Assembly: GCA_004335835.1 (NCBI GenBank)
Contig: RWJK01000521.1
Coordinates: 1-64,000 of the forward strand
Origin: Scenedesmus sp. ARA3
Taxonomy: Eukaryota > Chlorophyta > Chlorophyceae > Sphaeropleales > Scenedesmaceae
DNA: 64,000 nt
Reading direction: 5' to 3'
This document shows positions 1-64,000 of this stretch, piece by piece. Under the pieces are notes generated by a model. That model saw only the letters and a list, made by a program, of their open reading frames with translations. It did not search any database and had not been told where the DNA came from. The position numbers were made by a program, and so were the translations under genes. Within the stretch, counting starts at the first letter, position 1; the number at the start of each line of letters is the position of its first letter.

Positions 1-552
1 ACACGCGTAGCCTGCCCGCTTCTGGCCCAACCTCACTCATTGCTGGCATGTCTGTTGTTATGTAAAGTCAAGATGGGGATATTCTAACACACCTAAGGCA
101 ATCATGATCTGGTAAGCACGTTTTGTGCTGCAGGGATCATGAGGACTGACAGGTGTTAGTTTGACTANGCTGTTGTCATCAGGGTTCAAGTGCATGGTAG
201 TGTGATTTCGCTCTATTAAAGCAGATACAGCTTGGCTTGAATGCCAGCTGTTTGATTGTACGGGAGCAACGTTTGTGCATGCGCGTTTCCCTCCCACCCA
301 CCCTTGATACTCCATTGATGGGCTGTCATTTGCCTCTGCTTGACTACATACCACCATGTCAGTACTGTGCGGGATGTGTGCTGTGTGCTGCTCAGCTGAG
401 AATGCTGAGCTGTCACTGCTCTGGCGGCTGCTGTGTGCGCGGCACACGCGTAGCCTGCCCGCTTCTGGCCCAACCTCACTCATTGCTGGCATGTCTGTTG
501 TTATGTTAAGAGATGGGGATATTGTAACACACCTAAGGCAATCATGATCCGC
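1..552 (+). repeat. Direct repeat of about 105 bp inside the pseudogene intron
   Basis: Bases 1-110 and about 449-552 are near-identical (both begin ACACGCGTAGCCTGCCCGCT and end near CCTAAGGCAATCATGATC). The copies are 448 bp apart, with a few small indels. Both lie upstream of exon 649-753. Confidence 0.8.
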
Positions 553-729
553 TGTACTTGGAGCAGCTGCTTCATCATGCTGCTTCACATCGTGTGTCCT
601 GCTTTGATTCCTGCTGTGGACTTTGCTGTCTGGTGTCTGATCCTGCAGTTTGTCAACATCACAGAGGTCACGGCTGCATATGGAGCGGACACCAGTAGGG
701 GCCTGATGGAGTTTGCACGGCAGGCGCTG

Positions 730-860
730 ATGGAGGTGCCAGAGCAGTACAAGGTGCCGCGTTGCAGTGCATGCAGTTGCGTGCTGCCAGCAGTTCTGTT
801 TCAGCACTGTTATATGCTTTCTTTCAGCCTGATGGAGGTGCCTGAGCAGTACAAGGTGTG
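730..860 (+). repeat. Duplicated exon end plus donor
   Basis: The end of exon 649-753 (CTGATGGAGGTGCC..TACAAG followed by GT) recurs at 829-857, offset 102 bp, again followed by GTGTGC. This is one of many duplicated splice-site segments in the window. Confidence 0.8.
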
Positions 861-1466
861 CTGTTTGGCTTGTATTGCAGCGTTGAGAATGTCACAATGG
901 TGCGCGATCATCCGTCTACATGAGCACGCATCTGGAAGCACCTGACACCTTATCCCCTCGCTCACCTGTCCAAAGTGCTTTGATGCCGTTGCTGCTTATG
1001 GATGCAACCTGAGACCATGGTAACAATGTATGCCAGTTTGCTTTCTGTGCATACTGTGCTAGCTGTGCCCTGGCACTCACAACCACCGAGCAGCGTGCCT
1101 GTATGCGCATGTGCCTGCTGATCATGCAGCATGTTGGGCTGCTGGGCCGCACAATGCAGCTGCAGCAGCAGTGCCCACCACCTCTGGATCCACCAGCAAC
1201 CCTGGCAGCAGCAGCAGCACCACCACCACCACCATCACCAGCAGCAGCAGCAGCCGCAGCACCGCCAGCATCAGCATCCACTACTGCTCCACCACCAGTG
1301 CCCAGCTGGCCTCCAGCAGCACAGAAGCCGGCACAGGCAGCCGCCAGTTTGGAGTGGGGGACCAGCAGGCATGGCAGCAGGCGTTGCTGGCAGCAGCAGC
1401 AGCAGCAGCTGACGCGCTGGAGGCGTCTGTGCAGCAACAGGTGCTGCCAGTGGTGCCGCAAGCCGT

Positions 1467-1610
1467 GCAGCCGGCGATGACACCAGCAGTGACACCAGCG
1501 GTGACATCAGCAGCGACGCCGGCGATGACACCAGCAAAGACACCAGCGGTGACGCCAGCAGTGACGCCGGCGATGACACCAGCAGTGACACCAGCCGCGC
1601 CGCAAGCAGC
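1467..1610 (+). repeat. 12-bp minisatellite coding (PAxT)n
   Basis: About eleven imperfect units related to GTGACACCAGCG. In one frame they read PAVTPAVTSAATPAMTPAKT and so on. The intact paralogue has no matching array, so it expanded in the pseudogene copy. Confidence 0.75.
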
Positions 1611-4841: not shown

Positions 4842-4875
<34 letters not shown>

Positions 4876-6362
4876 TCTGCTGCTCCTGCTGCTGCTGCTG
4901 TAATTGTCATCTTGGTCAACACAGGTGACGCGCAGCGTCAATCTGCAGCCCGGGCAGCTGTCCCCTCAAGAAGCCGCCACTGTTGAAGCCCTGGTAGAAG
5001 CCAGCCAGCTGCCACTGTCTGTGGTGATGGTTGGCGTGGGTGATGGGCCTTGGGAGCAGATGCGTGAGTTTGACGACGCACTGCCGCAGCGCAACTTTGA
5101 CAACTTCCAGGTAGGCGCTTCAGCCTGGATCTCAGCTTAAGCAGAAGCGAGTGAGATTTGATGCACGGCCGGGCACGGCTGGACGGTTGTTGAAACAGAG
5201 AATTGCCGTGGTGACCACAAACGCTGCGGCAGTGTGCTCCCAGAGTGGCGATAATGGAATCAGCAGCAGAAGCAGTTGCTTGGAGTGGCTGCCTCATCCG
5301 TCTGCCCTCACTGTGTCGCCCCAACCTGTCACTTTGCCCTGTGTCTGCTGCTGGTGTTGCCGTAATTTGCACTGCTCTTGCAGTTTGTGAACTTCACAGA
5401 GGTCATGGCTGAACATGGGGCAGACACCAGCAGGGGGGAGGCACAGTTTGCGCTGCAGGCGCTGATGGAGGTGCCTGCGCAGTACAAGGTGCGCTTCTGG
5501 CTGAAATTGTACTACCATAGCATGACAGGTATCATTGTCATTGCAATGTGCATGGGCGTTGGCTGTCCTGTTGCACACGCAATGCTCCAGCCTGAGCAGC
5601 ATCAACACTTGGTTTGGCTCCAAGCACTGTTGATTGTAGTGTCAGCCTGCACACCTCACACATGCGTGTGTGCGCATCTGTACATGTTCTGTGCTGCGGC
5701 TTGCAGATCATCAAGCGCCTGCGGCTGCTGGGTCACCACGTGCAGCTGCAGCCACCGTGCCCGCCACCCCTGGACCCACCGTGTGTGCCTGCATGCACAC
5801 TTCCCTTTGCTGCGGCTTGCAGATCATCAAGCGCCTGCGGCTGCTGGGTCACCACGCGCAGCTGCAGCAGCAGTGCCTGCCGCCTCTTGATCCCCCCACA
5901 CCGGCAGCAGCAGCAGCAGCTGGCTACACACAGCCGCGGCATCGCCAGCAGCATCAGCAGCAGCAGCAGCTCAATCCTTACCCTGCTGTTCACACTCCAG
6001 TGCTGCAGCGCAGCGCACCAGGCTGGGAATGGGAACTGCCGGCACAGCTGCCGGCACAGCTGCCTGCACACTCCCTACCACAGGATCATCCGGCCAGTTC
6101 TGGGTGGGATGCGCAGGAGGTGATGCTGGCAGCAGCAGCAGCTGATGTGTTTGAGGAGTCTGCTGTTCCAGCAGCGCCCCGAGCACCAACTCCGCTGGCA
6201 CATTGGTCCAGCTACCCAGACGCTAGTGCGGGCTGGGAGGCGCAAGCGTCCGCAGCAGCAGTAGAAGCAGCTGTGGCTGCAGAGGGGATTGCGCAGCGAG
6301 CAGTGCCGCCCGCGGCGCCACGGGCATCACCTGCAGTGGTGATACCACAGCCGCAGGCAGCC

Positions 6363-6393
<31 letters not shown>

Positions 6394-7833: not shown

Positions 7834-10570
7834 ATGTCGCTGTCGTGGAGGGCCAACCTGTGTGCCCTGTGCGCTGTGCTGCTGCTCGCCACGCACGCAA
7901 CTGCAGGTAATTTTCAATCAAAGCTTGTGTCAGTACTGGTGGAACTTTCCGCCCTGATCGAAGCGACAGGAATGCGTGGGCAGCAGTAACTGACTTTCTG
8001 CTTAGTCAGGCACTGTCAAGCATACATGGATATGGCCAGAGCTGCATGTCTGTATCCAGTAACTCAGACGCACCACCACCTGCTGTATCATCACAGGACC
8101 CTACCCAGCTGTTGCGAACAGGCCATCTTTTGTAGCAGTGGGCGATGGCCTGACTGAGAGCGCCTTCTCAAGCGAGCACATGGGCTGGGGGCTGCTGCTG
8201 CAGCAGAAGTACGTCCGCAAGGTATGTGACACAAACAAAAACGCCGCTTTGCATGACCGTGACGCCTAGTGCTGCTTCACCTGCCGCATCAACACATGGC
8301 CAGCCTGCAAAGCTGGTGTTAGTGGCAGCAGTCGCCTCGCTGCGCGCTGCCAGAAAACAGGACTCCCCACCCAGCCATGCCCCCTGCCTCCCTCTGCACG
8401 CCTGGCACACCAACCGAACAACACCGTAACCATGTCTGTGTAACTGTACGTTATTTCTGTGACGTTTGTCCTGCTGCAGGCCGACATCATCAACCGCGGC
8501 TATGGCGGCTTCTTCACCAGCTGGTTTGTGGACTTCATGCTGGACAGCCTTTTCAATGTGGGCAACCCCGCCCTGGGCATCATCTTCCTGGGCGTGAAGG
8601 ACAGCCTGACACCAGCTGTCTCAGGGTGAGCAATTGACAAGCGGCACTACAGTACCCTGTGTACCAGCTGCTCTAGCTGCAGCACACCAGCAGCAGCAGC
8701 AGCAACATAGATGGCGCCAGCCTGGGCATCATTGTCCTGGGAGTGAAGGACAGCCTGACACCAGCTGTCTCAGGGTGAGCTTTCAGCAGCAGTTTGAACA
8801 CTCATCAGCTAGCCAACACTGCACAGCTTATATACTGTGGGCAACCCCGCCCTGGGCATCATCTTCCTGGGAGTGAAGGACAGCCTGACACCAGCTGTCT
8901 CAGGGTGAGCATTTGACAAGCGGCACTACAGCAGCCTGTGTACCGGCTGCTCTTGCTGCGGCACACCATCAGCAGTAATACAGATGGAACCAGCCTAGGC
9001 ATAATCTTCCTGGGAGTGAAGGACTCCCTCACGCCAGCCAGCAGTGTCAGGGTGAGCTTTCAGCAGCAGTTTGAACACTCATCAGCTGGCCAGCACTGCA
9101 CAGCTTTTGAAATGTGGGCAACTCCACCCTGGGCATTATCTTCCTGGGCGTGAAAGACTCCCTCACGCCAGCTGTGTCGGGGTGAGCAGCTGACAAGCAG
9201 CAATGCATCTGCCAGCCAACACTGGGCCGCAGCCTGTGCACCAAGCTCTCTTGCTGCAGCACACCAGCAGCAGCAGCAGGGGATGATCATTGTAGGGGTG
9301 AGGGAATCCTGCACGCCAGCAGTGTCGGGGTGAGCAGCTGAACAGCAGTACTGCAGCAGCTGGCTTGCGCTGGGCTGCTGCCTGTGTGCAGAGGCTGCAC
9401 GCTCAACCAAATACGAGCAGCACCAGCAGCAGCGGCAGCACACGGCAGACACGCACTGGAGTTGAGTGCATCGTAGCAGTGTCCTCAATCTGAGGTTTTT
9501 GCAGTAGCAGCAGCGCAGCAGCTGCGGCAGCTGACATGTGTAGCCCAGCGCGTTGGCTCACCCTGAAATTGCTCCGCCTGCTACACTACACCTGCAGGAA
9601 CCACTACATCTCGCCGCAGCAGTTTGGCAGCAACGTGCAGCGTATCATGGACGCGGGCAAGAAGGCGGGCATCTCCAAGTTCCTGCTCATCACGCCGCCC
9701 CCAGTGTGTGAGGCATGCAAGGGCAAGACACCGGTGAGTGAGGTTGGTTTTCAGTGCCAAATATCAGTGCCATTATCAGTGCCAGCTGATGTGTAATCGT
9801 TGCTCTCGGCTGCTGCCCTCATGCCACCTCAAGTCGGTGTGCGAGGCATGCAAGGGCAAGACCCTGGTGGGTGGCGGCGGCTGGCTGTCAATGCGATGTT
9901 GCAGGTGGCATATGCAGGGAGGTGTGCAAATTTTGCAGCATAACCTACAGGCAACACAGCATGCACAGCAGTTGCTGGCAGTTTCGTGGCAGGAAGCCAT
10001 AGACTTCTAAGTGGCATGCAGGAACAAGGCTGCGCTAAAACTTTTACTCACATTCAGCGCTCCATCAACATCAGCGCTGCATCCAGAAGGAGTAGCTGCA
10101 TCGGTGCTCTGGCTCATGCTATGTCTGCTGCTGTGTCCCCCTATTCTCTTCACCACTTTCACCCCTTCCCTCCACCCGAGCAGAAGCCCTGGGACCGTGA
10201 GAACAGCCACAGCGTGCAATACGTGCAGCAGCTGGCGCAGCTCGCGTCCCGCAACGGCGCCGCCTTTCTGGACATCTTCTCCGCATGGCAGGCCGACCCA
10301 GACTGGCACAACAAGCTGCTGCTGCCTGACAAGCTGCACCTATCGCCTAAGGGCAATGAGGTCCTGTTCAATGCTATCGTATCAACCTTGGAGAGGAGTT
10401 TTCCTGAGCTTGCACCTAGTGGCCAGGCCCTGAACTGGCCACTGATGGATGTCATTTCGAAAGATGATCCTAAAGCGGCGTTTTCCAAGGTTGTGATGAA
10501 CCCTAGCAGGGTGGCGGGCAGCTGCGGGGGTGGCAGCACGCCGCAGTGGAGCCGCGGCCGCAGGATGTGA
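7834..10570 (+). CDS. Secreted SGNH-hydrolase-fold protein, isoamyl-acetate esterase (IAH1)-like, probably catalytically dead
   Basis: Exons 7834-7906, 8097-8221, 8480-8625, 9598-9733 and 10184-10570 join in phase to 288 residues. Residues 1-24 (MSLSWRANLCALCAVLLLAT..) look like a signal peptide. The fold matches yeast IAH1 and plant GDSL esterases: FVAVGDGLTE, RGYGGFFTSWF, GIIFLGVKDS, FLLITPPPVCEA and LLPDKLHLSPKGN. Active family members need the Ser of GDS in block I and the Asn of GxND in block III. Here residue 42 is Gly (GDG) and residue 106 is Lys (GVKD), while Asp209 and His212 of block V are kept. I infer loss of esterase activity, or a rebuilt site. The large third intron contains five extra copies of the end of exon 3. 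The start was chosen because it gives the signal peptide and the first intron is in phase. Confidence 0.85.
8556..9336 (+). repeat. Six-copy array of the exon-3 end and donor of the esterase-like gene
   Basis: The segment coding GIIFLGVKDSLTPAVSG plus its GTGAGC donor is present six times. Donor GTs lie at 8626, 8775, 8905, 9052, 9182 and 9330. Spacings alternate 149, 130, 147, 130 and 148 bp, which implies a two-copy higher-order unit of about 278 bp. The first copy is the real exon 3; the others lie in intron 3 and diverge progressively. Confidence 0.9.
9697..9870 (+). repeat. Duplicated end of esterase-like exon 4
   Basis: GTGTGAGGCATGCAAGGGC..GACACCG before the donor at 9734 recurs with the donor at 9867 (offset 133 bp). 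Confidence 0.85.
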
Positions 10571-11421: not shown

Positions 11422-13771
11422 ATGGGAGAGCGCACAGTGAAGGTGCCGAAACTAGTGGCGTTTGACCTAGATGGAACATTGTGGTGAGTACAAAAACAAA
11501 TGAGTTCAAATTGTCCAGTTTGGCGGCAAAGGCAGAGCAGCCTGGGTGCAGCAACACTGGCAGCAGCAGTGAAGCAGCAGCAGCACCACCCACCCTGGGC
11601 TGGGTCTACCACGCTAGCATGCACAACAACTCACAGCAATTGACCTGCTGCGCTAGACTCCTATTATCTTACGGTGATTCTCTCATAAAACAGTACACAG
11701 CAACCTAGCCTTGGCTCCCTGGCACTAGCTGAGCTGCAGTCTTGTCTCTGCAGTGCCTGCACAGCTGCCGTGCATGACACAGATGCCACCCCTGTTATAG
11801 CTGGTACAGTGTCAGAGGGTGCCACGGCCCACGTGACACCACACAAACTATAAACAACATGTGCTGCCAGGTACCCTGAGATGTACATGCTGGATGGCGG
11901 CGCCCCCTTCCGCCGTGATGCCAGCGGGGCGGTGTTTGATGCAGCGGGGGAGCGCATCAAGCTGCTGGGAGACACCCTCAAGGTGCGCAGCAGCACACCA
12001 CTATATAGTTCTGAAACACATGCAGCAGCTTTGTGCCTCAAGCCGACCTGCTGGCCATAGACCTGTGTCATGCTGCTTGGCGCCAGGCATGCAGCTATGG
12101 AGCACACGCCAGCAAAACGACCTCGTTTTTGAGTTGAAGCGAGAAGCACACATGGCAGGCAGCCCTCAAGTCAGTGGAAAAGGCTGTGTAGATTTGTTGG
12201 TATGCAGCTGTTGCTGTTGCTGCTGCTGCAGCTGGACTTGGTATTATGCATGGTGAGCAGCCTCCTGGCAGCAGCTGCCTGCAGTTGGCGTCTGCATCAG
12301 CCTGACAGAGCAGCATAAACTGGTGTGGCTGCAGCACTCGAAGCAGCAGCAGCATGTGCTTACGTTGCGCACTTTGGCCATCGTCGGTGATGCTGTTGGT
12401 GATTATGCACAAGGCAGCTGGCGGCTCAGCTGGCTGATCTGACTTTGTACTTCTCTGCCTGTTATCCCATGTGTTGCTGGCAGGTGTTCGCACACATTAC
12501 AACACACCCAGACTGGTCTGACACAGAAATTGCCTACGTGTCACGCACAGAGTACCCGGAATGGTGAGGCACGCCAGCAGCAAGGGTCTAGCTGTAGAAA
12601 CCCCAGCGGCATGCAAGCATGTCAGGCGCCATGCCACACGGTTGAACCGCAGCATGCAGCGCATCAGCAGCATCAGGTCACTGCGTGACCTGTGCCTGTC
12701 TGGCCACAGCCTGCCTTGCACGTCCTGCAAGGACGGTGAGGCGCATCAGCAGCCGCGCCTCAACCCCAGCAGCACACAAGCGTGTCCTGTGCCCTGCCAC
12801 ACGGCTGAAACACTGCACACATCGCAGCGTCGGCTGTGTCTGTCTGGCCTGCGCCTGCCTTGCACGTCCTGCAGCCGCCCTGCTCTTACGGTGCCTTCAG
12901 GCTTTTTATAGATGCCATTTACTGTCTCACTCCGCTCACGAGGACCGCTATGCTGCGCTGCATCGCTGAAGCTGCTGTGTGTGGCTCGCCCTGCCCTCAT
13001 TACGCACTCGTGCTGCACTGCTGCTGCTGCTGCTGCTGCTGCTGCATGTGCCCCTGCTCTGCAGGGCCATCCCCTGCCTGCAGCAGTTCCCCATCCCTGG
13101 CCACCCACGCGGGCTCAGCCTGTTTGACGTCAGCGGCCACAACGAGATCTACCCCGGCAGCAAGCTGGCGCACTTTAAGGCCATACACAAGCGCAGCGGC
13201 ATAGACTATGAGGATATGCTATTCTTTGATAATGAGCGGTGGGTGCGCGCTGGGGCATGCTAGCGACAGCGTTGTTGCAGCAGCAGCTATGCTGACTTAC
13301 TTTGCGAGTGCTATGCTCTTCTTCGACACTGAGCGGTGGGCGGTGGGTGATGGGAGCGAAGGCGGATGAAAGTTTGTCACGTGGCAGCTGGGGTGGAGGC
13401 GGGTGCGCCAAGTGGTAGCGGCGAAGTAGCAGCAGCAGCAGCAGCAGCGGCAGCAGCAGCAGCAGCCGGGTTGACTGCCTCGCTGTCCATTCTGCGCTAA
13501 GCTATAGATGCTGGGTACACATGCAACTTGGTGCCAGTTCTTACCAGACATGTTTGCAACCTGCACGCCCTGCTTTGCTGCGTTCCAATGTTGCTGCAGG
13601 TGGAACATCACTGAAGTGAGCCGGCTAGGTGTGAAAAGTGTCTACTGCCCCCGCGGGCTCACGTCTGCTGTGTGGCAGGAGGGGCTGAGCATGTTTAAGG
13701 AGGGAGGTGCAGCAGCAGGTGACGGCAAGAAGCAGAAGCAGAAAAAGGCGGACAGTAGAGTATACGGCTGA
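11422..13771 (+). CDS. MDP1: Magnesium-dependent phosphatase 1 (HAD superfamily)
   Basis: Exons 11422-11483, 11871-11982, 12484-12563, 13065-13238 and 13600-13771 join in phase to 199 residues. Family members are small cytosolic HAD phosphatases that act on protein tyrosine or sugar-type phosphates in vitro. KLVAFDLDGTLW near the N-terminus holds the DxDxT nucleophile motif (Asp15, Asp17). HNEIYPGSKLAHFKAI carries the conserved EIYPGSK block, MLFFDNERWNI is the acidic metal-binding loop, and LGVKSVYCPRGL matches the family end, followed by a Lys-rich tail (KKQKQKKADS). In animal MDP-1 the acidic loop reads DDE as I recall; here the second Asp is Asn141. The start at 11422 gives the family's usual N-terminus. 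Confidence 0.88.
12563..12895 (+). repeat. Tandem duplication of about 170 bp in MDP1 intron 3
   Basis: The block from the exon-3 donor (GGTGAGGCACGCC..) to about 12733 is repeated, diverged, at 12734-12895. Both copies contain CCTGCCTTGCACGTCCTGCA and start with GGTGAGGC. Confidence 0.8.
13215..13347 (+). repeat. Duplicated end of MDP1 exon 4
   Basis: GCTATTCTTTGATAATGAGCG before the GT at 13239 recurs as GCTCTTCTTCGACACTGAGCG before the GT at 13336 (offset 97 bp). Confidence 0.85.
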
Positions 13772-15569: not shown

Positions 15570-17501
15570 TCAGTAGCGCATGTAACCGGGCATCTTGATG
15601 TTGAGGAAGGTCATCACAGCGCTGTACGCCATCACCAGGCCAAAGCCGCCCCTGCGGCCAGGCACACAGCACACCCCAACACCAAGCAGCAGGTCAAGTT
15701 GAGTGCTAGCCAGCCTGTTTGCATGCAGGCCAATATATTGCTGCCTGCATGTGCTCACACTGCACTGGGCCACATTGCGCTGCAATGTGGCAGTACTGCA
15801 GTGCGCAGGTGCGGAGCGCAGTTGCTGCAGTTGCTTGCACATTGATTGTGCTCATGCTGCTGCTTAAACATACGGCTGGACCCAGAATGACGCTGATGCC
15901 CTGCCAACTGCAGCCATCCTGCTACTGAACGCACACACTCCACAACAGTGCTGCTGCTGCAGCTGCCGCAGCTCACAGTGACGCCAGGATGAGCCTGCTG
16001 CCCTGGCCCTGCTGCCCTGCTGCTGCTGCCAACCACAGCTGCTGAGAAGCACAGTACAAGCAAAGCTGCTGCAGCTCAGAGTGACGCTGGGGCGAGGCTG
16101 CTGCCCTGGTGCTGCTGCCATCCGCTGCTGCTGCCCTGATGCTTCTGCTACTAACCACGGCTGCTGATTGCACAACATAAGCCAAGCTGCTGCAGCTCAC
16201 AGTGACACCAGGATGATTCGCAGCTTGTAGTCTGTGCGCTTGCTCTGGCACTGGTCCAGCGCAATCAGCGACAGCCCTGCAGGGACCACCAGTGCAGCAA
16301 AGGTGAGTTTGGCACAGCAGCAGCGAAGCTTGGGCCGGTCACAGTGCAGTAAGCACCCAACATTAGGACAGCTACTGCCACCATCGCCTGCTGCTGCTGC
16401 CCTCGCCTGCTGCTGCTTCGCCTGCTGCTGCTGCCGCCCTCGCTTGCTGCTGCTGCTGCTGCTGCCTGCCGCACCTCCCAGCGTGTACATCATGGCTCCC
16501 GAGATGCCCTCAATGATGTACTGCCCGTTCATGCGGTGGGGCATGAACGTGACAGGCTTCACCTTGCCTGCAGGCCATGGAACATGTGCAAGGGAAGTGC
16601 AGTGCAGTACGGTGTTGTCGTGATGCATTTGCACACAAGTTGATGATCCCTGGCTTCACCTTGCCTGCAGGCACCACACACAAGCACAAGAGAAGTGCGG
16701 TACAGAACGGGGTTGTATCAACTCCAAGCAAAGCGCACTACAGGCTGCTGAAGCTGCTGCTGCAACTGCTGCGCCTGGCGCTGCCCCCAGACGCTGCCAC
16801 TGGTGCTGCTTTACAGCTGGCACACGAGCAGCGATGCACCTCTGGCACAGCATCTGCATATGCTTGCGCATGTCCAGCAGTGCCAGCAGCTGACGGTCCT
16901 GCTGATTGAGCTGCTGCCTGTCTTGTCTGCAAATGTGCTGCTGCGCACACACCTGTGACCTCATCCTGCACTGCTGCGATTGCTGCCACAACTGCTTCCA
17001 CTGGTGCTGCTGCTGCTGCTGCTGCTTGAGCTTCCACTGGTGCTGGCCAACTGCTGCCGCTCCTGCAAGCGTGCTGCTGCCGCGCACACCTGTGACCTCA
17101 TCCTGCACTGCGCCCACTGCAGGAGGCTCGTTGATGATGTCATATGCGATGCCTGCCGTGACAAGGAAGTATGACAGGATGACCAGCGAACACACAGTGG
17201 AGGCCTTGGGCAGCTCAAACTCCTCCACCTGCAGAAAAGCCAAGTCATGTCAACAGCAGCACATTTAATTGATGAGCTAGCTGCTGTCGCTGCTGTTCAA
17301 ATCTCTGCAGTGACGGGGCGGTGCTGCTGCTGTCGCTGCAGAGCTGCTGAAGAGCAGACATGAGAGCGCTGCACGCCAGGTCAAGAAATGCATAGAACCA
17401 CCGCTCAGCTGGGATGCAAAGCCCAAACCCGATGCATATGAAGCCAATGGTCATGACTAAACACGCACCTTCGTGACTATGGTCTCAATCAAGCCCGGCA
17501 T
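15570..17501 (-). CDS. OSTC: Oligosaccharyltransferase complex subunit OSTC (DC2) homologue
   Basis: Exons on the minus strand are 17501-17469, 17228-17090, 16567-16475, 16276-16207 and 15651-15570, giving 138 residues; human OSTC has about 149. OSTC is a small ER membrane subunit that links the STT3A oligosaccharyltransferase to the translocon for N-glycosylation. Matching blocks are SLVILSYFLVTAGIAYDII, EPPAVGAVQDEVTG, VTFMPHRMNGQYIIEGIS, MMYTLGGLSLIALDQ and a C-terminal NIKMPGYMRY (human LPGY). Three membrane segments are apparent (about 18-38, 75-98 and 112-130). The donor of exon 4 is the weak GTCACT. It is required by phase and is the same in the duplicated copies downstream, so I prefer it over the adjacent GTGTCA. 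Exon ends 2 and 4 and exon start 3 are duplicated in the introns. The gene is divergent from the TPR-like gene. Confidence 0.88.
15880..16217 (-). repeat. Copies of the OSTC exon-4 end and donor
   Basis: The exon-4 end (reverse strand ATCATCCTGGT, then GTCACT) at 16207 recurs with equivalent ends at 16086, 15983 and, more weakly, about 15892. Each copy is followed by a CTGCTGC-rich segment. Offsets are about 121, 103 and 91 bp. Confidence 0.75.
16550..16715 (-). repeat. Duplicated acceptor and start of OSTC exon 3
   Basis: CCTGCAG before GCAAGGTGAAGCC (exon start 16567) recurs with an equivalent start at 16664, offset 97 bp. The similarity extends through GGCTTCACCTTGCCTGCAGG on the plus strand. 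Confidence 0.85.
16948..17115 (-). repeat. Duplicated end of OSTC exon 2
   Basis: The GCAGGATGAGGTCACAG end at 17090 recurs at 16953, offset 137 bp. Both are followed by GTGTGNGC. Confidence 0.85.
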
Positions 17502-17994: not shown

Positions 17995-19507
17995 ATGTGG
18001 CTGGCGTGTGGACATAGCAGCCCGCCGCAGCTGCTGGCGCCCAGGCACTACACAGCAAGGCCAGCTGTAGCAGCAGCACCACCAGCAGTGCTGAGCAGTA
18101 GCAGGTCTCGGGTACGCTGCCGTGCCACCACAGACCTAGCAAAGTTTGCAGACAAGTCATACCTTGACAAGGCAGCAAAGCGCTTCAAGCTAGGTGAGGC
18201 GCTTGGCCACACATACAGGTCCACATGCCAGCTGTAGTGCCTGCAACCCACACGTGGTGCTGAGCTCCAGCAACAAATTGCCCACATACAAACCCTGCAG
18301 CATCCACCAGCAGCGCTGTCTGTCCATGTCTTTGGATGTGTGAGGCGCATGGCAGTGCTCGGACGTCGACACGCGTATGCCAGCTGTAGTGCATGCAAGG
18401 AGATCAAGTCATGCATCACTTTGCCGGCTGCACGTATGTCTCATCCTACAGCATTACACAACTCAGCTGTTTGGTCCCTTTGATTGGCATTTATACAGTT
18501 TAGAATATAGCATAACTTTTGTTGCGCATTGCAGGGCGTGAGCAGGGCCTTGAGGAGGACTTCCTGGTGGCAGTGGAGCTGGGCGCCACCAGCAGGGAGC
18601 AGCTGAGCGATGCGCAGCTGGAGTATGTCGACAAGATCAAGGACAAGCTGGTGCAGGTGGGAATTGGCAGCTGCTGATGGGGCGGCGGCAGCAGCAGCAG
18701 CAGGTGTCAAGTGATAGCTGTGGGTTCATGCGGAGCTGATGCACAGCAGTTGAGCGGCGTTTGCCAGGCAACCAGTGCAATGCGTGGAAACTAAAATTGG
18801 GTTGACAGGCCCGAAAAGGACTGAACTGAGTATGTTGACAAGATCAAGGAGAAGCTGGTCAAGGTGGGGCCTTCAAGCACGCTGCTGATGGGGCGGCAGC
18901 AGCAGCAGCAGCAGCAAGTGCCGTCTGACAACCTTCAATGCATGCGGAGCTGATATGCACAGCAGCTGAACTGCGGTTGCCAGGCCACCAGTGCAGTGCA
19001 GGCAAACTCACCGCGGGTTGACAGGCTTGCCTCTGGGCTCAACTGGTGGCCGTGAGCACTGCCTGCTGCCCAGCTTATGCTCAGCACACACACGCCATTG
19101 CAGTTGTCAGCAGCACCTGCGATTGGGGGAGACAATGTGTATTGCCTGTCATGAAAGCACAGACGTGATCAGCGTGCAGCTGAGCTTGCAGCTGAGCTCT
19201 CAACAACACAGAGCGCTTGCAGATTCTGCCCATGCTGTGCATGCTCACCAGCTGTGCCTATGAACCCGATGCACTGACGCTGTGTGTGATCACGCGCCGC
19301 ACTGCGCCGTGCTGTGCTGTGCAGCGCGCTGCTGAGCTGTCAGCGGAGGAGGCTGAGCGCAAGAAGCGGGAGGCGGCCTACATGGAGGCGGGCAAGATGG
19401 TGCGTAGCAGCGGCGGCAGCAGCAGCAGAAGCAGCAGCGGCGGCGGCAAGCAGAACATCAGCAAGCATGACAGCAGAGGGGACAGCAGCAGGAGCCAGCA
19501 GCAGAGT

Positions 19508-19558
<51 letters not shown>

Positions 19559-26043: not shown

Positions 26044-26086
<43 letters not shown>

Positions 26087-44406: not shown

Positions 44407-47149
44407 ATGAACAAGCTATTGCTGCTTGGGCTCGTGCTGGCCGCCCTGGGGTCAGCGTATGCCCGCATCGAGTACGCTCATGTGTTCTACGACGACAGGC
44501 CGCTCATAGAGATCACACAGCCCTTTGGCTTCGGCAGTAGGGGTCACATAGACATAGTTCTGCGGGACATCAGCATCTGGAGGCGCCATGACAGCGAGGA
44601 CGACTACAAGCTGGGCAACGTTGGCTTCTTCCTGGCCAACATCAACTCAGCCAGCTCCAGCGTCACGCAGGAGATGCTCTCGCAGGCGTGCCTGCTAGAA
44701 GAGCGGGACCTGTTGAAGCTCTTCACGTTTGCTGACCCCAAGGTGGAGGCAGTCATCGATGGCAAGGCCCCCAACGTGACCTTCCATGTGGAGGTCAAAG
44801 ATGGGGGCCTCTTCTCGGTCTTCTTTGCCAACTGCGAGCAGCGCACGCCCGTGTCATTCGCCATGAAGGTGTCTGCCTACAACCTGGTGGGGCCGCAGGG
44901 CCGCAAGGACTACCTGTCCATCGGCGAGGGAGAGCTGGACGTGATGTACTGGGTGCGCAGCAGCAGCAGCAGCTACAGCAGCAGCGGCATCAGCGGGTTC
45001 AGAGTGCTGAAATGGAACAGTGATGGCAGGGGTTGGTGAAGGGGGGTGTCACCAGTGTCAAAGGCAGCAGTAGGGCTTGTCAGTAGCGTTCACAGCAGCA
45101 GCAGCAGCACGCTGCTAGCACCAGTTCGCAGCATCGTATGTTACACACGACAAGCCGTCCGCCGGATTGCAGTTTGCAATCACCAGTGTAACTATTGCAA
45201 ATAAGCAGCATGAAGCTTCAGTAGGCAGCAATGGCAGCAGCAGATCAACTCATCAGCTGAATATCTTTAGCACACCAGCTTGGCAGTGACAGCAGCGTTA
45301 TCCCACTCTGGGTAACAGCTGCAGAACAGATTGCATTGCAGTTGCATAGCGGGCGCGAAAGCACCACCAACACCAGCAGTGCTTGTGCGTGCAGCATGCT
45401 GCTCCGGCCCAGCACCAGTCAGGGATGTCCAGCAGGTGCTTGCTGGACGGTACCACAGGGCAGCAGCAGTGACAGCCTGCAGCTGCTGTTCATTCAGCAG
45501 CCCTCATACACACATCTGTTCCGCGCCCGCTCAATCTCACCATCTTGTGCTGTTATCTCCGCTGGCTGTTACCATCCTGCCTCCATCCCTGCCGCAGGTT
45601 ATGTTTGGCCTGTTTGCCACCATCACCGCAGCTTGGGCCACAACTCTAGTGCGCGCGCGCCGCACTGCCGGCAGCGTGCACTCCATCCACTGGCTTATGC
45701 TGGGCCTAGTGGCCTTCAAGACGCTGACGCTGCTGGCGCAGGCCTGCATGTACCTGGTTATTCAACGCGCCGGCAGCCCGCATGGCTGGAACTGGGTGTA
45801 CTACATCGCCACCTTCTTCAGGGGCATGCTGTTCTTCAGCGTCATCGTGCTGATTGGCACGGGATGGTGAGGAGCTGCTGCTGCTGCTGTCGAAGCAGTG
45901 CTGCTGGCAGTTATCATTCGGCACAGCAGGCAGTCGCCAGGGCTCAGTAGGCGTGCCGGCCTTTGAACGTGATCTGCAAGCTCGGGGTGTATATTCTGCG
46001 CCGCAGCAACTGCTTTGGCGGCTTATGAGCATACAGATGCATCTGCATGCAGCTTGAGACGCAGTGGCAGCATGGATGCAGACGTTCGCTGCCGGCTGGC
46101 GTGCTGAGGCTCTGCTGTGCTTTGTTGCTTGTGCTGCTGCCGCATGTCATTGGTGTTTGTGCTGCTGCTGCAGGAGCTACATGAAGCCCTTCATTGATGA
46201 CAACACGCGCAAGGTGCTCATGGTGGTCATCCCGCTGCAGGTGCGGTCCTAGGTTTCAGGCGCTGTAGCGTTTGTGTGCGGAGATTAGGGAAGCAGCTGC
46301 TGCTGTGGCGGTGCAAAGGTGCAGCTGTGGTTACTGCGGTGGCCGCGTAGGTCGGCATCATCAGCAGCAGCAGCGCTGGTGAGGAGTCGCCCAGCTTGCT
46401 GTCACCCACTTACTGTCACCTTGACACACGCGGCTGCTGTCACCGGCTGATGTAAACCCTGACACACCCGGCTGCTGTCACGCTCCATGCCGCCGCAGGT
46501 GCTTGCGCTCATACGCCTTCAGTCTGACACACGTGGGTGCTGTCACGCCGCGCCGCCACCGTCAACACACACACTTGCCGTCACCCGCCGCCGCAGGTGT
46601 TTGCGGACATTGCCATCGTCATCACTGGCGAGGAGTCACCCGTTTACTGTCACCTGACGCACCCGGCTGCTGTCCCCTGCTTGCTTGTTGTCACCCCCGC
46701 CCCACCCCACCCTCCCACAGGTGTTTGCGGAGATCGCCATCGTCATCACTGGCGAGGAGTCGCCCTCCATCCGCGACTGGGTCACCTGGGTGAACATCCT
46801 GCACTTTGTGGACATCCTGTGCTGCTGCGCGATCCTGTTCCCCATCGTGTGGAGCATCAAGCACCTGCGCGACGCCAGCGAGACAGACGGCAAAGCGGCA
46901 CGGGCGCTTGAGAAGCTGCAGCTCTTCCGGCAGTTCTACATCCTGGTCGTGGTGTTCATCTACTTCACGCGCATTGTGGTGTTTCTGCTGCGGGAGAACC
47001 TGGCGAATAGCTTGTATGCGTGGGTTGCGGATGCAGCGTATGAGCTGGCGTACCTGGCGTTCTATGTGTGGGTGGGCGTGCGCTTTGCGCCGAATGCCAA
47101 TAACCCGTACACCAAGCTGCGGCAGGAAGAGATTGAGATGAGGGTGTAG
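44407..47149 (+). CDS. GPR107/108-type seven-transmembrane protein (lung 7-TM family)
   Basis: Exons 44407-44952, 45598-45866, 46174-46240 and 46721-47149 join in phase to 436 residues. The family consists of Golgi/trans-Golgi membrane proteins with a lumenal N-terminal domain and seven helices, linked to membrane trafficking in animals and plants. Residues 1-19 are a signal peptide (MNKLLLLGLVLAALGSAYA). The lumenal domain runs to about 180 and ends LSIGEGELDVMYW. The membrane part shows HSIHWLMLGLVAFKTL, FFSVIVLIGTGWSYMKPF, KVLMVVIPLQVFAEIA, DWVTWVNILHFVDILCCCAI, LFPIVWSIKHLRDASETDGK and LFRQFYILVVVFIYFTRIVV. These match plant homologues block by block as I recall them. The cytosolic tail is short and acidic. 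The start gives the signal peptide at once. The acceptor of exon 4 is present in three copies. Confidence 0.9.
46499..46770 (+). repeat. Three copies of the acceptor and start of GPR107-like exon 4
   Basis: CAG followed by GTGYTTGCGG starts at 46499, 46597 and 46721 (real). The second copy reads VFADIAIVITGEESP before diverging. Offsets are 98 and 124 bp. A further fragment GAGGAGTCGCCCAGC lies at about 46380. Confidence 0.88.
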
Positions 47150-48059: not shown

Positions 48060-50179
48060 GCCGCTGTTGGAATGGATGCAGCAGCAGGGCTGCAGCGTGT
48101 CTGGTGTAGGGCTGTTCTATGAGCAGCAGCAAGGCGGCAGCATGTCAAGGGAGCTCAGGGCCACTCAGGTGCGGCTTTGATACATAAGTGCTGCTAGCAC
48201 TGCAGCAGCTTGTGCGGCAGGCCCACTGAAACAGCAGCATCAGCATGTGTTGTAGTAGCTTGTCTACTAACCCTATAGTTGTGCACTTCAGCAGTGCAGT
48301 TTGTGAAAGGACAAACAGGTGCATGCGGCAAGCTGCATCTTGTGACGTGATGTGCTGCGTGGCTGCAGGACCTTGCACCTGGTGATGTGCTCATCACAGT
48401 GCCACTGGCAAGCACCATCCACTACATAGATGAGCAGCAGCAGCAGCAGCAAGCTGCTGGGAGCCCTACCAGCAGCAACAGCAGTGACAGCAACAGCAGC
48501 AGCAGGCTGGCTGCACTGCGCAGGCTGCAGCGCAGCGTGCCTGCTGCCTCTGACAGTGGCAGGGGGGCATGGCAGTTCAAGGTGGCCCTGGAGGTGAGGC
48601 CAGCAGCAGCAGCAGCGGGCATGGTGTGGCCTGTTGTGTCCAGACTGCACCTGTACCGTGCGCTAGGGAGCCCTCTGAAGCCCTGCGCTTGCTGCATAAC
48701 AGATTCGTTTACAAGCTGCAACTGCATCACATCCCTGGCAGCTGACGGTGCAACAGATGATGATACATCTCTTCCATGTGAAATGCAGCGGATATGCAGA
48801 CGGCAACATGCGTCACACTAACCCTGTATGTTATGGTGTGCTACCACCCCGATTACAACCCTGCTGTACACATGCACCTGCACTTGCTCATCATGCAGAT
48901 CCTGTACCACTACTGCCAGGGCCCTGCCAGCCCTCTGCACGCCTACATCCAAACCCTACCTGGGGTTCAGCAGGGCATTCCTAAACCCCAGATAGCCATG
49001 CTATACCCTAAACCCCAGCTGCAGGAGCTGCAGTACAACCCTCTGATAGGCGATGCAGCCAGCCAGGCCTACTGGTGGAGGCAGTACAGCAAAGAGGTGC
49101 TGGCAGCGCTTCCTGGCAGTGCTGATGATCCATTTGGCGGGCAGCTGGTCACACAGGAGCAGCTGGGTGAGGCGAAATTGACTATCAGCCATGTTTTGCC
49201 ATCAGCATGCTGTGGCAGCTGGCCCTAGTTTTAACGATGAGGGATCCTTGTAGTCACCACCACGCTGCACACAGGAGCAGCTGGGTGAGCTCGTAATGGG
49301 CTATGCCCCGCTTTTTGGCCAGCAGCATGCTGCGGCAGCTGGCCTTGTAGTCACCAACACGCCGCAACTGATGCTTGCACGTCAGCTGCGCTGCAACGCT
49401 GCACTTGTCGTGCCTTGTGCGGATCACGTAGGTGCTGCTGTGCAGCAGGCTGGGCGCTGCCGCCGGCCATGTCTTGTGTTGCCCATACCAGACGGACCGG
49501 CAGCTGCTTGCAGTACTTGTTAGCTGCTTTTGTGTGCTGCTGCTTTGCAGGCTGGGCGCTGCCCCTGGCCATGTCTTGTGTTAGACGTACCAGACGGACT
49601 GGTAGCTGCTTGCAGTACTTCAACGCTGGATTTGTGTGCTGCTGCGTTGCAGGCTGGGCGCTGTCTCTGGCCATGTCTCGTGCATTTGGCTTCAAGCGCC
49701 TCGGGGGCTGGGCGCTGGTGCCGCTGGTGGACATGGCCAACCACGCCCTGGCCAGCAACGCAGAGATACGCTTCGGGGAGGACGGTGTCGTGCGCATGAT
49801 GGCCAACAAGCAGGTCGGTTGACTGGGTTGTGACACTTTGATACAAGCAGGTTCTGTTGAGGTCTGATGTTGCATCAATGGAATGGTGGGATCAGGATGC
49901 ATTTTGACAGGGCTGTGCCGTGACCCTGGGTGCTGCTCATAGCTCATGGCTGCACAGCCAGCCATGTTGAGGAGCATCACCTGTTGCTCTCAACATCTGT
50001 ATCATGCAGGCGTCACGGCTTGCAATGGATACAGTGGTTGTTTGGTGCTGGTCATCTGTGAGAACCATACTTGGCAGGAAGAATTCCACCAGGTGTTGCA
50101 GGCAACACACCACCGCTTCTGCCACTGCTGCTGCTGTTGCACTCCACGTCACAGGTTCGGCAGGCTATCCACAATACAA

Positions 50180-50225
<46 letters not shown>

Positions 50226-54935: not shown

Positions 54936-54976
<41 letters not shown>

Positions 54977-57900
54977 TAGCGGTTGCATTCAAGTTGTGCC
55001 AGTGCCCAAGGAGGAAGTACGTACCACACGAGGAACTGCACGAGTGCAGATAGCGCCGTCACCGCCATTGCTAGAACTCCCACAAGAGGACTCCACATTG
55101 AATCATCGAAACCACAATACGGGCAACGCATTTGAGCTCCATCCTGCTCACCACATGGGGAGGTAAACCAATGCATAGAGTGCTGTCGCTGCCATGACCA
55201 GCACCCCCAGCCATGCGAAATCCACAGAACATAAACCGCATTGAGCCCCATCTGCCTCTCACCACATGGGGAAGTACACCAGTGCGTACAGTGCCGTCAC
55301 TGCCATGGCCAGCACTCCCATCCAGAAGAAACCTTGTGGCGTGCTCAGAGGCGCATACGTGAAGAAAATGGCCTGGTTCAGGGAGGCGCCTGCAGCAGCA
55401 GCAGCAGCAGCAAAGTGCCTGAGTGATCTCTGCCGTGGTGGTGGTGCTTAAAGAGCTTCGCAGGTTCAGCTCATGCACATACAAAGTCATCAGCTGACAT
55501 TGTGCAGTCATTGTCAGTCAAGTGGTAAGTGTGCCACTGGCAGGTGACTAGGAGCCATGCAGCAGACAAGCAGTGCACTGATAGCTGGATATGTTGCCGC
55601 TTGCAACAGTGCTCGGCAGGCCGCAAAAGCAGCATAAAGTGCATCACATAACCAAAACCGAGCGTGCTAGGCAGTGATGGTGCATCCTGAGCACTGTTCA
55701 GCTCACCAACATTGCCGCCAGCGCCAACAAAGCCTGCAACCAGCCCAGTGGACCGTTTTGACACAAACGGCACCACGCCAAATGAAAGCCCGGCGCTCTG
55801 CTGGCATGTAACTGACAGCATCACCAGGACTGCCATAGTGGAGGGAAGGCTGCTGCTTACAAGACCCAGCAGTAAACACATCAGGCCTGCAAACAACAGC
55901 AGCAGCGGCAGCAGCAGCAGGCACAAGGGACCCATGCTTCAGCCAGGCCTCATGGTGAAACAGACAACAGTCGATGGGATGTGTGTGCTTGACACTTCCT
56001 AATTTGTCCATCAACAGCTTGCAACTATCTTTCAGCATCAGCAATGCAAAGGGCAGCTGACTAATGGTTCACGGGAAGGCTGCTGCTAACAAGCCCCAGC
56101 AGCTTCGCCTGTTTTGCCAGTAGGCCTGCAGAGTAACAGCAGCAGCAGCACGTTACGCAGCAGCTGCATGCAAACTGAAATCTCACTGCCAACAGCAGCA
56201 TGATACACAACACTCACCTGCAAGTGTCTGCGTGATCCACGGCGCCCACAGCCGTCCCAACATACCCCAACGGCTAGCCACATAGTCACTGACGGCATGG
56301 TGATGACAATTCAGTTTTACCTTTCAGCAGGAGCTGAACAGCCCCTAAGTCACACATGTTGTCATTTACAAACAAACATGTTACATGACACCCACCTGCA
56401 AGTGTCTGTGTGATCCACAGCGCCCACAGCCGTCCCAACATACCCCAACGGCTAGCCAGATAGTCACTGACGGCATGGTGATGACAGTTCAGTTTTACCT
56501 TTCAGCAGGAGCTGAACAGCCCCTAAGTCACACATGTTGTTATTTACAAACAAACATGTTACATTACACCCACCTGCAAGTGTCTGTGTGATCCACAGCG
56601 CCCACAGCCGTCCCCTCATACCCCAACGGCCCGCCCATAGTGACTGAGCAGGCCGCCACTCGGCCTGCTGAGGATGTTGGTCCCAAAACAACAGGCTTTA
56701 CATAACACGTTATGCAACACTCACCTGCAAGTGTTTGAGTGATCCACAGCGCCCACAGCCGTCCCCTCATGCCCCAACGGCTGGCCACATAGTCACTCAG
56801 CAGACCGCCGCTCGGCCTGCTGAGGATGTTGGTCAAACCAAACACAGATGCCAGCAGGCCAGCTGTCTGCAAGCCCAGGGAGAACTGGTCAAACATGTAC
56901 TGCGACAGCAGGTTGTTCATGGTCAACTCCACTCCAAAGGAGTAGCCGTAGGTGGCCATCATGACCCAAGTCCTGCAAGCAAGCAGGCGGCAAATGGCAC
57001 AGGGGCGATAAGGGCAGGCTGGTTTGGCATGCTGGATTGGCAGTTACTTACACTTGTTGGCAACGGCACTGACATTCAGTGAGCATTGAAGGTCCTAAAT
57101 TAGCAGACTCGCATTGATACATTTTGACACGGTTGAAAGATCTTTTGTTACACACTGCAAGAGACGTCAAATGTGCTAGGTCAAACATGGTCAACTTACC
57201 TGTAATTGGTAACAGCAGCCCGCCACATGGCCATGTTTGACTGCCGCTTCATTGCCCCACTGGCTTTCAGGTCAGCATAGTTGCCATCAGGGCAGTCTGT
57301 GGCAAACAGCATTGTTGTGATTGTCATAAACACCTGATAGCAGCAGCAGCAGCAGCAGCAGCAGCAAACAGCAACAGCATGCTAAGAAGAGGGGCAAATG
57401 TAGACGCCAAGTAGCGTTCAAGTCGGGTGCGTAAACACACAAACATGTCAGAAACAGAGAGAATACTTACACGTGGCTCCGGGCACCATCTTAGACAGCA
57501 GCCAAATCAGCTGAACACCATGTCAAAGCGTGACTCAGAGGTAACCAGCACAGCAGTAGATCACAATGTATCCATCTTGACGAACACCTTGTCTCCCCAA
57601 TTTAAAGCAAGAATGCATCTGCGGTGTGCCAGTGGCATACCCTACTCGACCAGCAGCGTGCTCAGAGACGCGCAACCAACAGCATGTTGTCAAGATTATG
57701 TGAACATGTGGTGTGGACAACAATAGCTCAGCGGCTCGCAGCGGCAGGAAATCCAAAAGTCATATTTGATACAGACACGGTGCAACAGCACAACATTATT
57801 GCAACTACCGCAAGTATAGATCTCATCTTGTTTAAGATACATATGTTACTGACGAGCCAATGACACATCAATGCAGGTTGGTCCCCACCTGCAGGCAGCC

Positions 57901-58016
57901 GGGCACCATGAAGCACCACCGCCACGCCACAAACACAGGAAGGCCCATGCTGCTGACAATGGCGTTGCAGACCAGAGGCATCAGCAGCAGCGCCCAGCCG
58001 CCACCCGAGTTGCCCT

Positions 58017-58049
<33 letters not shown>

Positions 58050-61901: not shown

Positions 61902-63229
61902 GTGCGCAACTGGAGGTGAAAAAGGCCGATGCGAACGTGCAAGCCTTGGAGGAAAAACAGACTTTTGAAGATCGCTTAGAACTATACCTAGACTTGTCAG
62001 CGCGCGTATATGCTGAACAGGCGTAGTCATATGTGCATAAACAGGCAACAGCTCCCAATAAGCGGACGGGATGCCACACTGTGGCTACTGTGACACTACC
62101 ACCAGTGACCTTCCTCTCCTTCCTCGTTACGTGAGAAGGTTGTCGCAGGTAGCCTTTCGGCCACTATATCGAAACAAGTAAAAGATAGAACATATAGAGG
62201 TATATATGCTCCTTTGATTTGTCGGTGCGCCTGCAGCCGACGTGCTTGCTGTTTCATGTGCAGCGTAGCAGGATTCCTGGCCAGTCACCAGCGGCTGGTG
62301 CAGCGGGTTCATGTCCTGCTGCTCCACCTAGGAGCTGCTGCAGCACTATAAGCTTTTGTAAGCTGCTTCAAGCACTCAAACTGCCCTTTTGCAATTTCGG
62401 GGTGATCACTGAAGAAGCTGGTAAGCACAGTTAGACAGCCTGTGTGCGGCACCATGATGCTTGATCAGTCCCGATACATGTACATGAACAGCCCCACTTG
62501 GAGTGCCAGAGACTTTAGCGGGGGTCTTCTGGCTCAGCATTGCTTGAAGGTGCGCAGCTGTGCATGACCAGCGTACTTTGTTATCCTGTCTTCGTCTAGA
62601 ATTCGTCATTTTACATCTGCCGTGTCAGCTTTACCTAGCCGCACTGAGCAGTCAGTGGTGAAAACACAAGCTGCAATGAAATGCTGCATCAGCATGTTGC
62701 AAGTTTGTAGCGCATCTCGGGCACACGGCCTGTGACTGAATGCCTGCATGTGCAGTTCTGGCTGCAACATTTACTGCTTGTGCACATTGCAGCAGCTCTG
62801 CAGTCAACAATTTCATTACTTCTGCCAACAGAGTGTCGATGCCGATTGCAGGCAGCTGCAGACAGACAGAGGTTTACACTGTTGCTGAGCAAGTGCCTTC
62901 AACACAACATGTCTCTGCAAGTGCGATTGACGCATACTAGGCTCGACGTCGCACTGTGCATTTGCGCTTGAAGTATATGCATATGCAAATGCAACAATGT
63001 TGATGGCAAAAGTCAACACAGCTAGACTGCAAGCCATCATAACGGTCATCATATCATCAAACAGCCACAAGTGCGTTTGACACAAGCCAGGCACAAGCCG
63101 CTTAGGTGGACAGTCAAAGCACACATGCGATACACTGCCAGTATATGTACAGTGTATATCATGATCAATCTGGCACAAGCACAAACATGCAATTCACGCT
63201 TGTACATATACAATGTGGTGGCGTCTGAC
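61902..63229. other. Intergenic region, no gene recognised
   Basis: Mostly AT-richer than the rest, with no repeats of note and no recognisable exon on either strand. Confidence 0.4.
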
Positions 63230-63384
63230 TACTGGCTTGTGGCAAGAGCATGCTCTGCGCAGTACAACTTTGATTGGTGCGGCAGCGTCGTTGGAGCTTG
63301 TGGTACACAGCCAATGGCATAGGGCTGATACTGATCCACAGACGGCTGGCACCGTGCATCATCGGCACCTGCTGGTGGCTGCTG
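63230..63384 (-). repeat. Diverged fragment of the surface-protein family
   Basis: On the minus strand, CCATTGGCTGTG..CACCAATCAAAG and neighbouring words match the part of 63385-63837 coding CIGCAQRCNTNHS. It is too short and diverged to code for anything on its own. Confidence 0.5.
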
Positions 63385-63837
63385 TCAGCGGCACCAATAA
63401 CATACAACTGGAAGCAAGCTGCCAATTTTCTTGCCTGCCGCCAGCTTGTTTTTGTTGTTCCATTGCCACTCCCAATACCCGATTTTTATGAGTGCTGACA
63501 GGCCCACAAGAGTGGAGGCGGCGATGCCAACAATGACACCCGTGCTGAGTTGAAAGCCGGTGGCCCTTCTGCGGCTGCTGCTGCTGCTGCGGCTGCTGCT
63601 GCTGGGCTGCCTGGTGGTGCTGTGGTTGTGGAAGCAGTGGTCGTTGCACGCAAAGGTGTTGCCGCTGCTTGGCACTGCTGCTATTACAAAGCTGGCGGCG
63701 TCCACAGCAGCGCCAAACACAATGATGCTGTGATTGGTATTGCAGCGCTGCGCACAGCCAATGCATGGGGCTCCTACTGGCTGACAGTATGGCTGGTGCA
63801 GAACACCATGTTCGCCTCTTACATAGCTGCTATACAT
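63385..63837 (-). pseudogene. C-terminal fragment of a surface-protein paralogue
   Basis: An open frame of 150 codons contains STGVIVGIAASTLVGLSALI, then a basic tail ending KKIGSLLPV, closely matching the C-terminus of the 60993-61901 protein. Upstream, a Ser/Arg-rich stalk replaces the Thr/Pro stalk; in a neighbouring frame the same DNA reads TTTASTTTAPPGSPAAAA, which suggests a frameshift. Only about 450 bp separate this stop from the next copy's stop at 63830, so no room is left for a signal peptide or full ectodomain. I read it as a duplicated gene end rather than a gene. Confidence 0.6.
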
Positions 63838-64000
63838 TTGGAAGGAAGCTGCCGCTCTTCATGCCTGCCGCCAGCTTCTGTTCATTGTTCCACATCCACG
63901 CCCTGTACGCAATGGTCATTAGAGCTGACAGGCCCACCAGAGCAGAAGCGGCAATGCCAGCAATGGCGCCTGTGCTGAGCTTAACAGATGTCGCCTCTTG
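63830..64000 (-). CDS. C-terminal end of another surface-protein paralogue (runs off the window)
   Basis: The minus-strand frame entering from 64000 reads KLSTGAIAGIAASALVGLSA, then LMTIAYRAWMWNNEQKLAAG, and stops at 63830-63832. The membrane helix, basic tail and SFLPNV end match the 60993-61901 protein. The ectodomain lies outside the window, so I cannot tell whether this copy is complete. Confidence 0.65.
   Translation of the reverse strand, partial: QEATSVKLSTGAIAGIAASALVGLSALMTIAYRAWMWNNEQKLAAGMKSGSFLPNV

Follow-up and report, generated by a model that had tools for sequence, protein, structure and literature searches.

The window analysed here is the first 64 kb of one contig (RWJK01000521.1) in the assembly of the green alga Scenedesmus sp. 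ARA3 (GCA_004335835.1; 87.3 Mb in 1567 contigs). Its subject is a set of short direct copies that lie across or beside the exon edges of its genes and leave second, phantom edges in the adjacent introns. The spliced esterase of the window (exons within 7834-10569) is 100% identical over 288 amino acids to the protein OEZ86_012294 (NCBI) of Tetradesmus obliquus, which indicates that the organism is T. obliquus or a very close strain. Gene models were produced by our own self-trained hidden Markov model (HMM), without RNA data, and were checked for one gene, the esterase, by this protein identity and for seven further spliced predictions against Pfam. Six of these seven gave Pfam matches at E ≤ 0.001, namely Copine, OST3/OST6 (26.6 bits, for a cut-off of 27), TBC, GOST together with CAND6/7, Rubisco-LSMT-binding and MFS; the TPR-like prediction was without any Pfam match. 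A SET match, in the protein that also matches Rubisco-LSMT-binding, fell just below the curated cut-off. An earlier HMM gene finder that set no lower limit on exon length strayed into CAG repeats and was superseded, and long open reading frames (ORFs) were unusable as a training set because of the low stop density.

Direct copies in the window

Comparison of the window with itself by BLAST, the check called for by the initial annotation of this DNA, gave 47 same-strand matches at offsets of 60-750 bp and six at larger distances, and no inverted match at 60-750 bp. The local direct copies form 29 clusters, and in 21 of them the best pair crosses a predicted exon edge. The initial annotation had listed offsets of such copies gene by gene; after merging of repeats, 33 of them were tested by comparing the best 30-base match lying at most 3 bp from the offset in the named gene with diagonals 1000-1400 bp away. 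All 33 exceeded the control maximum, two of them by one base only (GPR107 offset 98, 20 against 19; NRT2 offset 127, 21 against 20), and these two were left uncounted. For 12 of the 33 the best match lay at a neighbouring offset: in the esterase 147 and 148 moved to 149 and 133 to 130, in OSTC 97 to 98, in the TPR-like gene 207 to 205, in the cysteine-rich gene 111 to 112, 136 and 135 to 134 and 106 to 103, in GPR107 98 to 96, in SET 118 to 120 and in NRT2 239 to 238. The offsets 133, OSTC 97, 207, 111 and 118 were also found at their exact value by self-BLAST. With 31 of 33 offsets clear, the tandem copies across exon edges that had been reported in this window are real.

The copies are described here from left to right, on the forward strand except for the two genes mentioned as reverse. 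In the Copine gene, a piece of exon containing a probable donor, AAG|GTG at 754 as read by eye, is copied at 727..858 (offset 102, 30 bp, 97%); this cluster is outside the 21 edge-crossing ones, since the final model puts the exon end at 766. The same gene carries at 5689..5896 a 92-bp segment with a TGCAG acceptor, also read by eye (offset 116, 88%). Exon 3 of the esterase at 8480..8625 is, from the identity to OEZ86_012294, the copy used in the annotated protein through its first donor, and five phantom copies of the exon-3 end and donor follow at 8697..9386 in a roughly 279-bp tandem array with alternating types; the end of exon 4 with its donor is copied at 9704..9873 (offset 133, 37 bp, 89%). 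The MDP1-like gene has a copied exon end and donor at 13205..13340 (offset 97), and the OST3/OST6-like gene, on the reverse strand, a copied exon edge at 16555..16716 (offset 97) and a donor-side copy at 16911..17111 (offset 137-140). In the TPR-like gene, an exon end together with the intron head is copied at 18621..19026 (offset 207, 199 bp, 78%), and exon-end copies lie at 19820..20077 (offsets 95, 110 and 205). The cysteine-rich gene contains a 202-bp tandem array of 2.4 copies that includes an exon edge (25259..25736), copies of an acceptor and exon start at offsets 111 and 120 (27272..27554), and a roughly 134-bp tandem array built on another acceptor and exon start (27859..28326), in which two phantoms each differ from the exon by four bases over the 48-base exon part with the amino acids unchanged.

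Further along, the TBC gene has an exon end and donor copied at 41158..41312 (offset 124, 31 bp, 94%), no similarity being found in the intron that follows, and at 43061..43501 a segment at offsets 141 and 256, with the predicted stop in two copies. The GPR107-like (GOST) gene shows an acceptor and exon start at 46591..46765 (offset 124, 51 bp, 92%), and the SET/LSMT-like gene a donor-side copy at 49150..49344 (offset 118) and an acceptor-side 102-bp tandem array of 2.5 copies at 49432..49682. The NRT2-like MFS gene, on the reverse strand, carries a donor-side copy at 55127..55324 (offset 110-111) and, at 56199..56834, a 178-bp tandem array which together with a copy at offset 151 gives four copies of an exon end. 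Besides these copies, runs of CAG/CTG trinucleotides are very numerous throughout the window (for example 4451-4496, 19406-19557, 26045-26107 and 50182-50244), and a 29-bp minisatellite of 7.4 copies with 91% matches lies at 24040-24254.

Frequency and placement across the genome

To the window were added 20 stretches (189 kb), one each from 20 contigs chosen by number alone, for a total of 239.3 kb of non-N sequence. For the cluster and age-class counts, matches were excluded when a copy held more than 40% CAG/CTG repeat, when the bit score was below 43 or when the offset fell outside 60-1000. Self-comparison gave 218 direct matches and a single inverted one at offsets of 30-1000 bp, the direct ones being densest at 100-150 bp and almost absent beyond 1 kb, so that the copies share both orientation and short distance. 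After clustering, 216 matches formed 104 clusters covering 40.4 kb of the sample, and 90 of the 104 touch a predicted exon edge, against 66.3 ± 4.5 under random placement. Two of the 20 stretches (L013 and L014) contain no cluster, and the description of such copies as present in nearly every gene, which fits the window, does not extend to the genome.

An independent probe test, which makes no use of the clusters, asked whether a 36-base word recurs in direct orientation 40-450 bp away with 27 matches or more; low-complexity probes and predicted exons shorter than 30 bp or weakly scoring were excluded beforehand, and by their design the words, like the spaced-pair extents given below, are weighted towards the exon (28 exon and 8 intron bases). 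With the window included, a copy was found for 84 of 247 donors, 61 of 232 acceptors and 103 of 755 exon-interior, 197 of 2397 intron-interior and 36 of 1546 intergenic probes, with a reverse-complement control close to zero. In the 20 stretches without the window, the values were 115/367 for splice sites (about 31%), 88/592 for exon interior, 144/1688 for intron interior and 21/1116 for intergenic DNA, and the edge-to-intron ratio was 3.65 (95% interval 2.9-4.6, locus bootstrap). Four later stretches (L029-L032), labelled with the frozen gene model, served as a hold-out. In these, a copy accompanied 7 of 94 splice sites (about 7%; 5/46 donors and 2/48 acceptors), a lower level than in the 20 stretches, together with 9/464 intron-interior, 7/162 exon-interior and 19/168 intergenic probes, and the contrast between edge and intron holds (Fisher P 0.01). 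The excess at splice sites that the initial annotation had proposed to count is thus present relative to intron interior, whereas in the hold-out it is not significant against exon interior or intergenic DNA. The four hold-out stretches hold 1, 0, 15 and 3 local matches, and local direct duplication is therefore widespread through the genome but patchy.

Two observations stand beside these counts. Fifteen of the 19 BLAST matches in the hold-out belong to L031. The densest local copies of the sample lie at L012:430-4765 (contig C211), with 29 matches in 5 kb and partial matches on other contigs, and this segment is possibly a multi-copy gene or a repeat family.

Shape, age and reading frame of the copies

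In a profile across splice sites made with probes placed evenly on both sides, and so without the exon-side bias, the highest frequency of copies lies within 12-24 bp of the splice site on its exon side, and the frequency falls across the site (at donors from 0.215 to 0.049). In the 83 spaced pairs, similarity without gaps reaches 16-148 bp into the exon, and in 49 of them it ends 3-9 bp into the intron. An early reading in which the homology always ends at the splice site was weakened by gapped comparison of the intron heads: beyond the splice site, 24 of 65 pairs classed as exon-only are similar at P < 0.05, where 3.25 are expected, and none of the rest is significant. Judged by this weak intron-head similarity, many exon-only pairs are probably decayed tandem duplications. 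Exon and intron parts are both present in 53 matches, and Tandem Repeats Finder (TRF) detects true tandem arrays, whose introns are similar and whose copy number is about 2 to 2.6. A comparison of introns between paralogues yielded no loci.

The phantom edges in adjacent introns, which had been claimed for the window, keep real-looking donors: GT is kept in 52 of 60 phantom donors and their median score is 6.05, compared with 6.16 for real donors, the intact donors being partly an effect of ascertainment. Of the donor-side phantoms, 5 of 60 have a matching acceptor at their opposite end (random 21%), and of the acceptor-side phantoms 2 of 23 have a matching donor there (random 11%). The phantoms are exon ends, not exons. 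Neither are they read in frame. Indels whose length is not divisible by three make up 77 of 88 in exon-derived parts and 483 of 570 between non-exonic copies, and open spacers do not exceed the number given by chance (10/46 against 9.9 and 7/27 against 6.2). The offsets of 98 pairs leave remainders 0, 1 and 2 modulo three in 24, 43 and 31 cases; since all the pairs give this distribution, the shortage of offsets that are multiples of three where the partner lies in a predicted intron (6/47) may be an effect of HMM labelling.

Over the same 98 pairs, 289 of 422 differences between exon and phantom fall at the third codon position. The 53 matches that hold exon as well as intron sequence diverge by 0.146 in their introns; codon positions 1, 2 and 3 give 0.096, 0.061 and 0.193, values near those of a neutral phantom for the first two positions and high for the third. 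Base composition was tested as the cause of the third-position excess and rejected. Taking the excess as proof that the phantoms are translated was given up in view of the frame-blind indels and of the same signal in phantoms that could not be coding; birth from a diverged allele or past coding use would explain the excess.

The identity between copies peaks at 85-95% and near-identical copies are few, although the youngest may have been collapsed by the assembler; the view of an ongoing genome habit is not borne out by this distribution. Edges were touched by 26 of 33 copies at 90-95% identity (13.5 expected) and by 34 of 37 at 85-90% (20.1 expected), that is, by 60 of 70 against 33.6 for the combined class. 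Among copies with at least 95% identity, no edge excess was detectable (6/14 against 5.0 ± 1.7, a comparison of low power), so that a targeting of splice sites, the reading first suggested for the window, does not appear in the youngest class. Intron halves fade faster than exon parts, with an indel density per kb of 43.0 for pairs of non-exonic copies and of 10.9 for exon-against-nonexon parts, and older copies often keep the exon sequence and a few intron bases. That no edge excess is detected in the youngest copies, together with this faster intron decay, speaks for uneven decay and selection rather than for targeting.

The recurrence of one arrangement in other data bears on whether the copies are real. 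In stretch L023, an ORF that spans the exon end, the spacer and the phantom at offset 93 is found at 98% identity over 245 amino acids in another source (P0018), labelled lgn, presumably for the Logan assemblies of publicly available reads. This match indicates that in the one tested case the copy is not an invention of the assembly. In P0019, an ORF from a relative, the stretch of about 30 residues visible after the L023 exon end contains no copy, and P0020, which looks transcript-derived, cannot show introns. The analogous comparison for L015 in other sources gave no spanning ORF.

Origin of the exon-edge remnants and related systems

We lean, with modest confidence, towards an origin of the exon-edge remnants in general short tandem duplication followed by uneven decay and selection. 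Short-range direct duplication, mostly at 60-750 bp with a mode of 100-150 bp, would be or have been frequent anywhere in genes, most likely through slippage during replication or through unequal exchange. Where a duplicated segment spans an exon edge, one of the two edges would stay in use and the copy would turn into a phantom within the intron, while insertions within exons would mostly be removed by selection. The intron halves of the copies would fade quickly through substitutions and indels, and with age the exon end and splice-site bases beside the working exon would be what remains visible, mimicking a targeting of splice sites; the third-position differences would perhaps stem from exchange between diverged alleles. 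Several results weigh against this explanation. The excess at edges does not change steadily with age (22/28 against 15.8 at 80-85% identity and 31/41 against 26.6 below 80%), and the youngest class, with 14 copies only, tests the absence of edge preference weakly. In the hold-out, neither the difference of edges from exon interior (P 0.39) nor that from intergenic DNA (P 0.39) is significant. Copies are rarer in intergenic DNA (21/1116) than in introns (144/1688), for which uneven decay offers no explanation, and the hold-out shows the opposite, its intergenic DNA being richer in copies (19/168). The ratio of third to first and second positions is 3.2 (2.5-4.4), whereas a neutral phantom next to an exon under constraint should reach about 1.6 at most; of 195 changed codons whose partners lie in predicted introns, 122 are synonymous, and the signal remains (37/60) in 17 phantoms unable to be coding exons. 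Finally, some identical exon ends are without detectable similarity in the following intron (for example L024:5103-5143), which simple tandem duplication does not predict.

Part of these difficulties would be relieved if diverged alleles, or hybrid parents, had given rise to the copies through unequal exchange, so that these were born with allelic differences, mostly synonymous in exons and many in introns. Such exchange would account for the third-position differences irrespective of codability, for the sharp loss of intron similarity and for mosaic arrays such as that of the esterase, where two copies that differ at 8 and 9 of 48 bases leave the amino acids unchanged and sit in an array whose intron parts diverge by about 0.11; frame-breaking indels in phantoms also agree with it, and the related Scenedesmus sp. 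NREL 46B-D3 is described as likely diploid with alleles separated (PMC7955037). It would nevertheless require a third-position allelic divergence of at least 0.1; the sole independent ORF differs by about 2% only, and no second haplotype was found in the assembly for five searched stretches, L012 and L024 having diverged partial matches elsewhere; we regard it as rather unlikely. The real-looking phantom donors, the frequent end of similarity 3-9 bp into the intron and the third-position bias could also reflect selection for working alternative exon ends or redundant splice sites. That phantom edges are kept in this manner is doubtful, and equally doubtful is its broader form, in which many phantoms in a large share of genes would be selected redundant ends giving the same protein under coding constraint: the second splice site at the phantom boundary is rarer than at random, spacers are not unusually open, offsets are not multiples of three beyond chance, indels ignore the frame, the annotated esterase uses one copy, and the intact donors are partly due to ascertainment.

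An RNA- or transcription-linked copying anchored at splice sites, with edges as true hot spots, would be in agreement with the exon-side peak, with the drop across the site and with the poverty of intergenic DNA in copies, but the lack of a detected edge excess among the 14 youngest copies and the frequent weak similarity of intron heads make it improbable. Least credible of all, and in our estimation very improbable, is an artefact in which overlapping contig ends of diverged haplotypes were joined unmerged. The 100-250 bp scale, the direct orientation, the exon-like divergence and the gaps of the assembly (N in 5 of 20 stretches) would suit such joins, and the recurrence of the L023 arrangement at 98% in an independent source, together with true tandem arrays having similar introns, speaks against them. 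The first reading of the window, with targeting and present intron gain, is thus supported only in part, and general duplication with uneven decay and selection is retained in what follows.

The process is of a known kind; its density and the splice-edge remnants are unusual. In tandem exon duplication and mutually exclusive exons, a similar exon sequence is repeated beside the original within the gene, as is the exon sequence here, whereas the algal copies are exon ends without a second splice site (5/60 and 2/23). Introners and other mobile introns would multiply splice sites through a genome, and splice sites are multiplied through this one; the algal copies, however, are local, and two duplicated window stretches, compared with the whole genome, match elsewhere only in short pieces (two 40-bp pieces for 8480-9400, and fragments no longer than about 110 bp at 76-84% for 30000-30500). 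Tandem duplication is an established route of intron gain (PMC4974935, PMC3443670, PMC2891723), and in a potato RNA-dependent RNA polymerase (RdRp) case a duplication copies an intron/exon boundary (PMC4974935). Local direct duplication within genes with splice signals included is common to these cases and the alga, and so is the copying of an intron/exon boundary. Unlike in that route, the algal copies lie mostly beside existing introns, and a usable AG|GT common to both copies is not enriched (5/68, compared with 8% of 870 control exon windows), so that the link first drawn to intron gain through duplicated AGGT finds no support; compared with the isolated cases, the density is far higher and no new intron is demonstrated among the algal copies. 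A possible enlargement of introns by the copies, also claimed, would fit the mean intron of 462 bp (7.8 introns per gene) given for T. obliquus, where the same source has 230-302 bp for the three other Sphaeropleales R. subcapitata, M. neglectum and C. zofingiensis (PMC5966456). No report of such a duplication habit in T. obliquus was found in the full-text literature, a search that did not cover subscription papers.

If the sampled frequency holds (about 31% of splice sites, 7% in the hold-out), the alga offers a natural experiment on the choice between near-identical splice sites, on intron growth and on the effect of common tandem duplication on gene structure. By extrapolation, there are probably thousands of pairs in which a real site and a decoy share their local sequence and which could be followed by RNA-seq, which makes this alga a good place to study intron growth and correct splice-site choice.

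Apart from the local copies, a dispersed repeat of about 84 bp with a CATTA tract and two predicted hairpins occurs at L015:2597-2680, L014:884-968 (99%) and L024:4113-4193 (84%). It has no Rfam match and no tRNA, and among the best 40 of 478 candidates scored it was found in at least 39 other genomic places at 94-100% identity.

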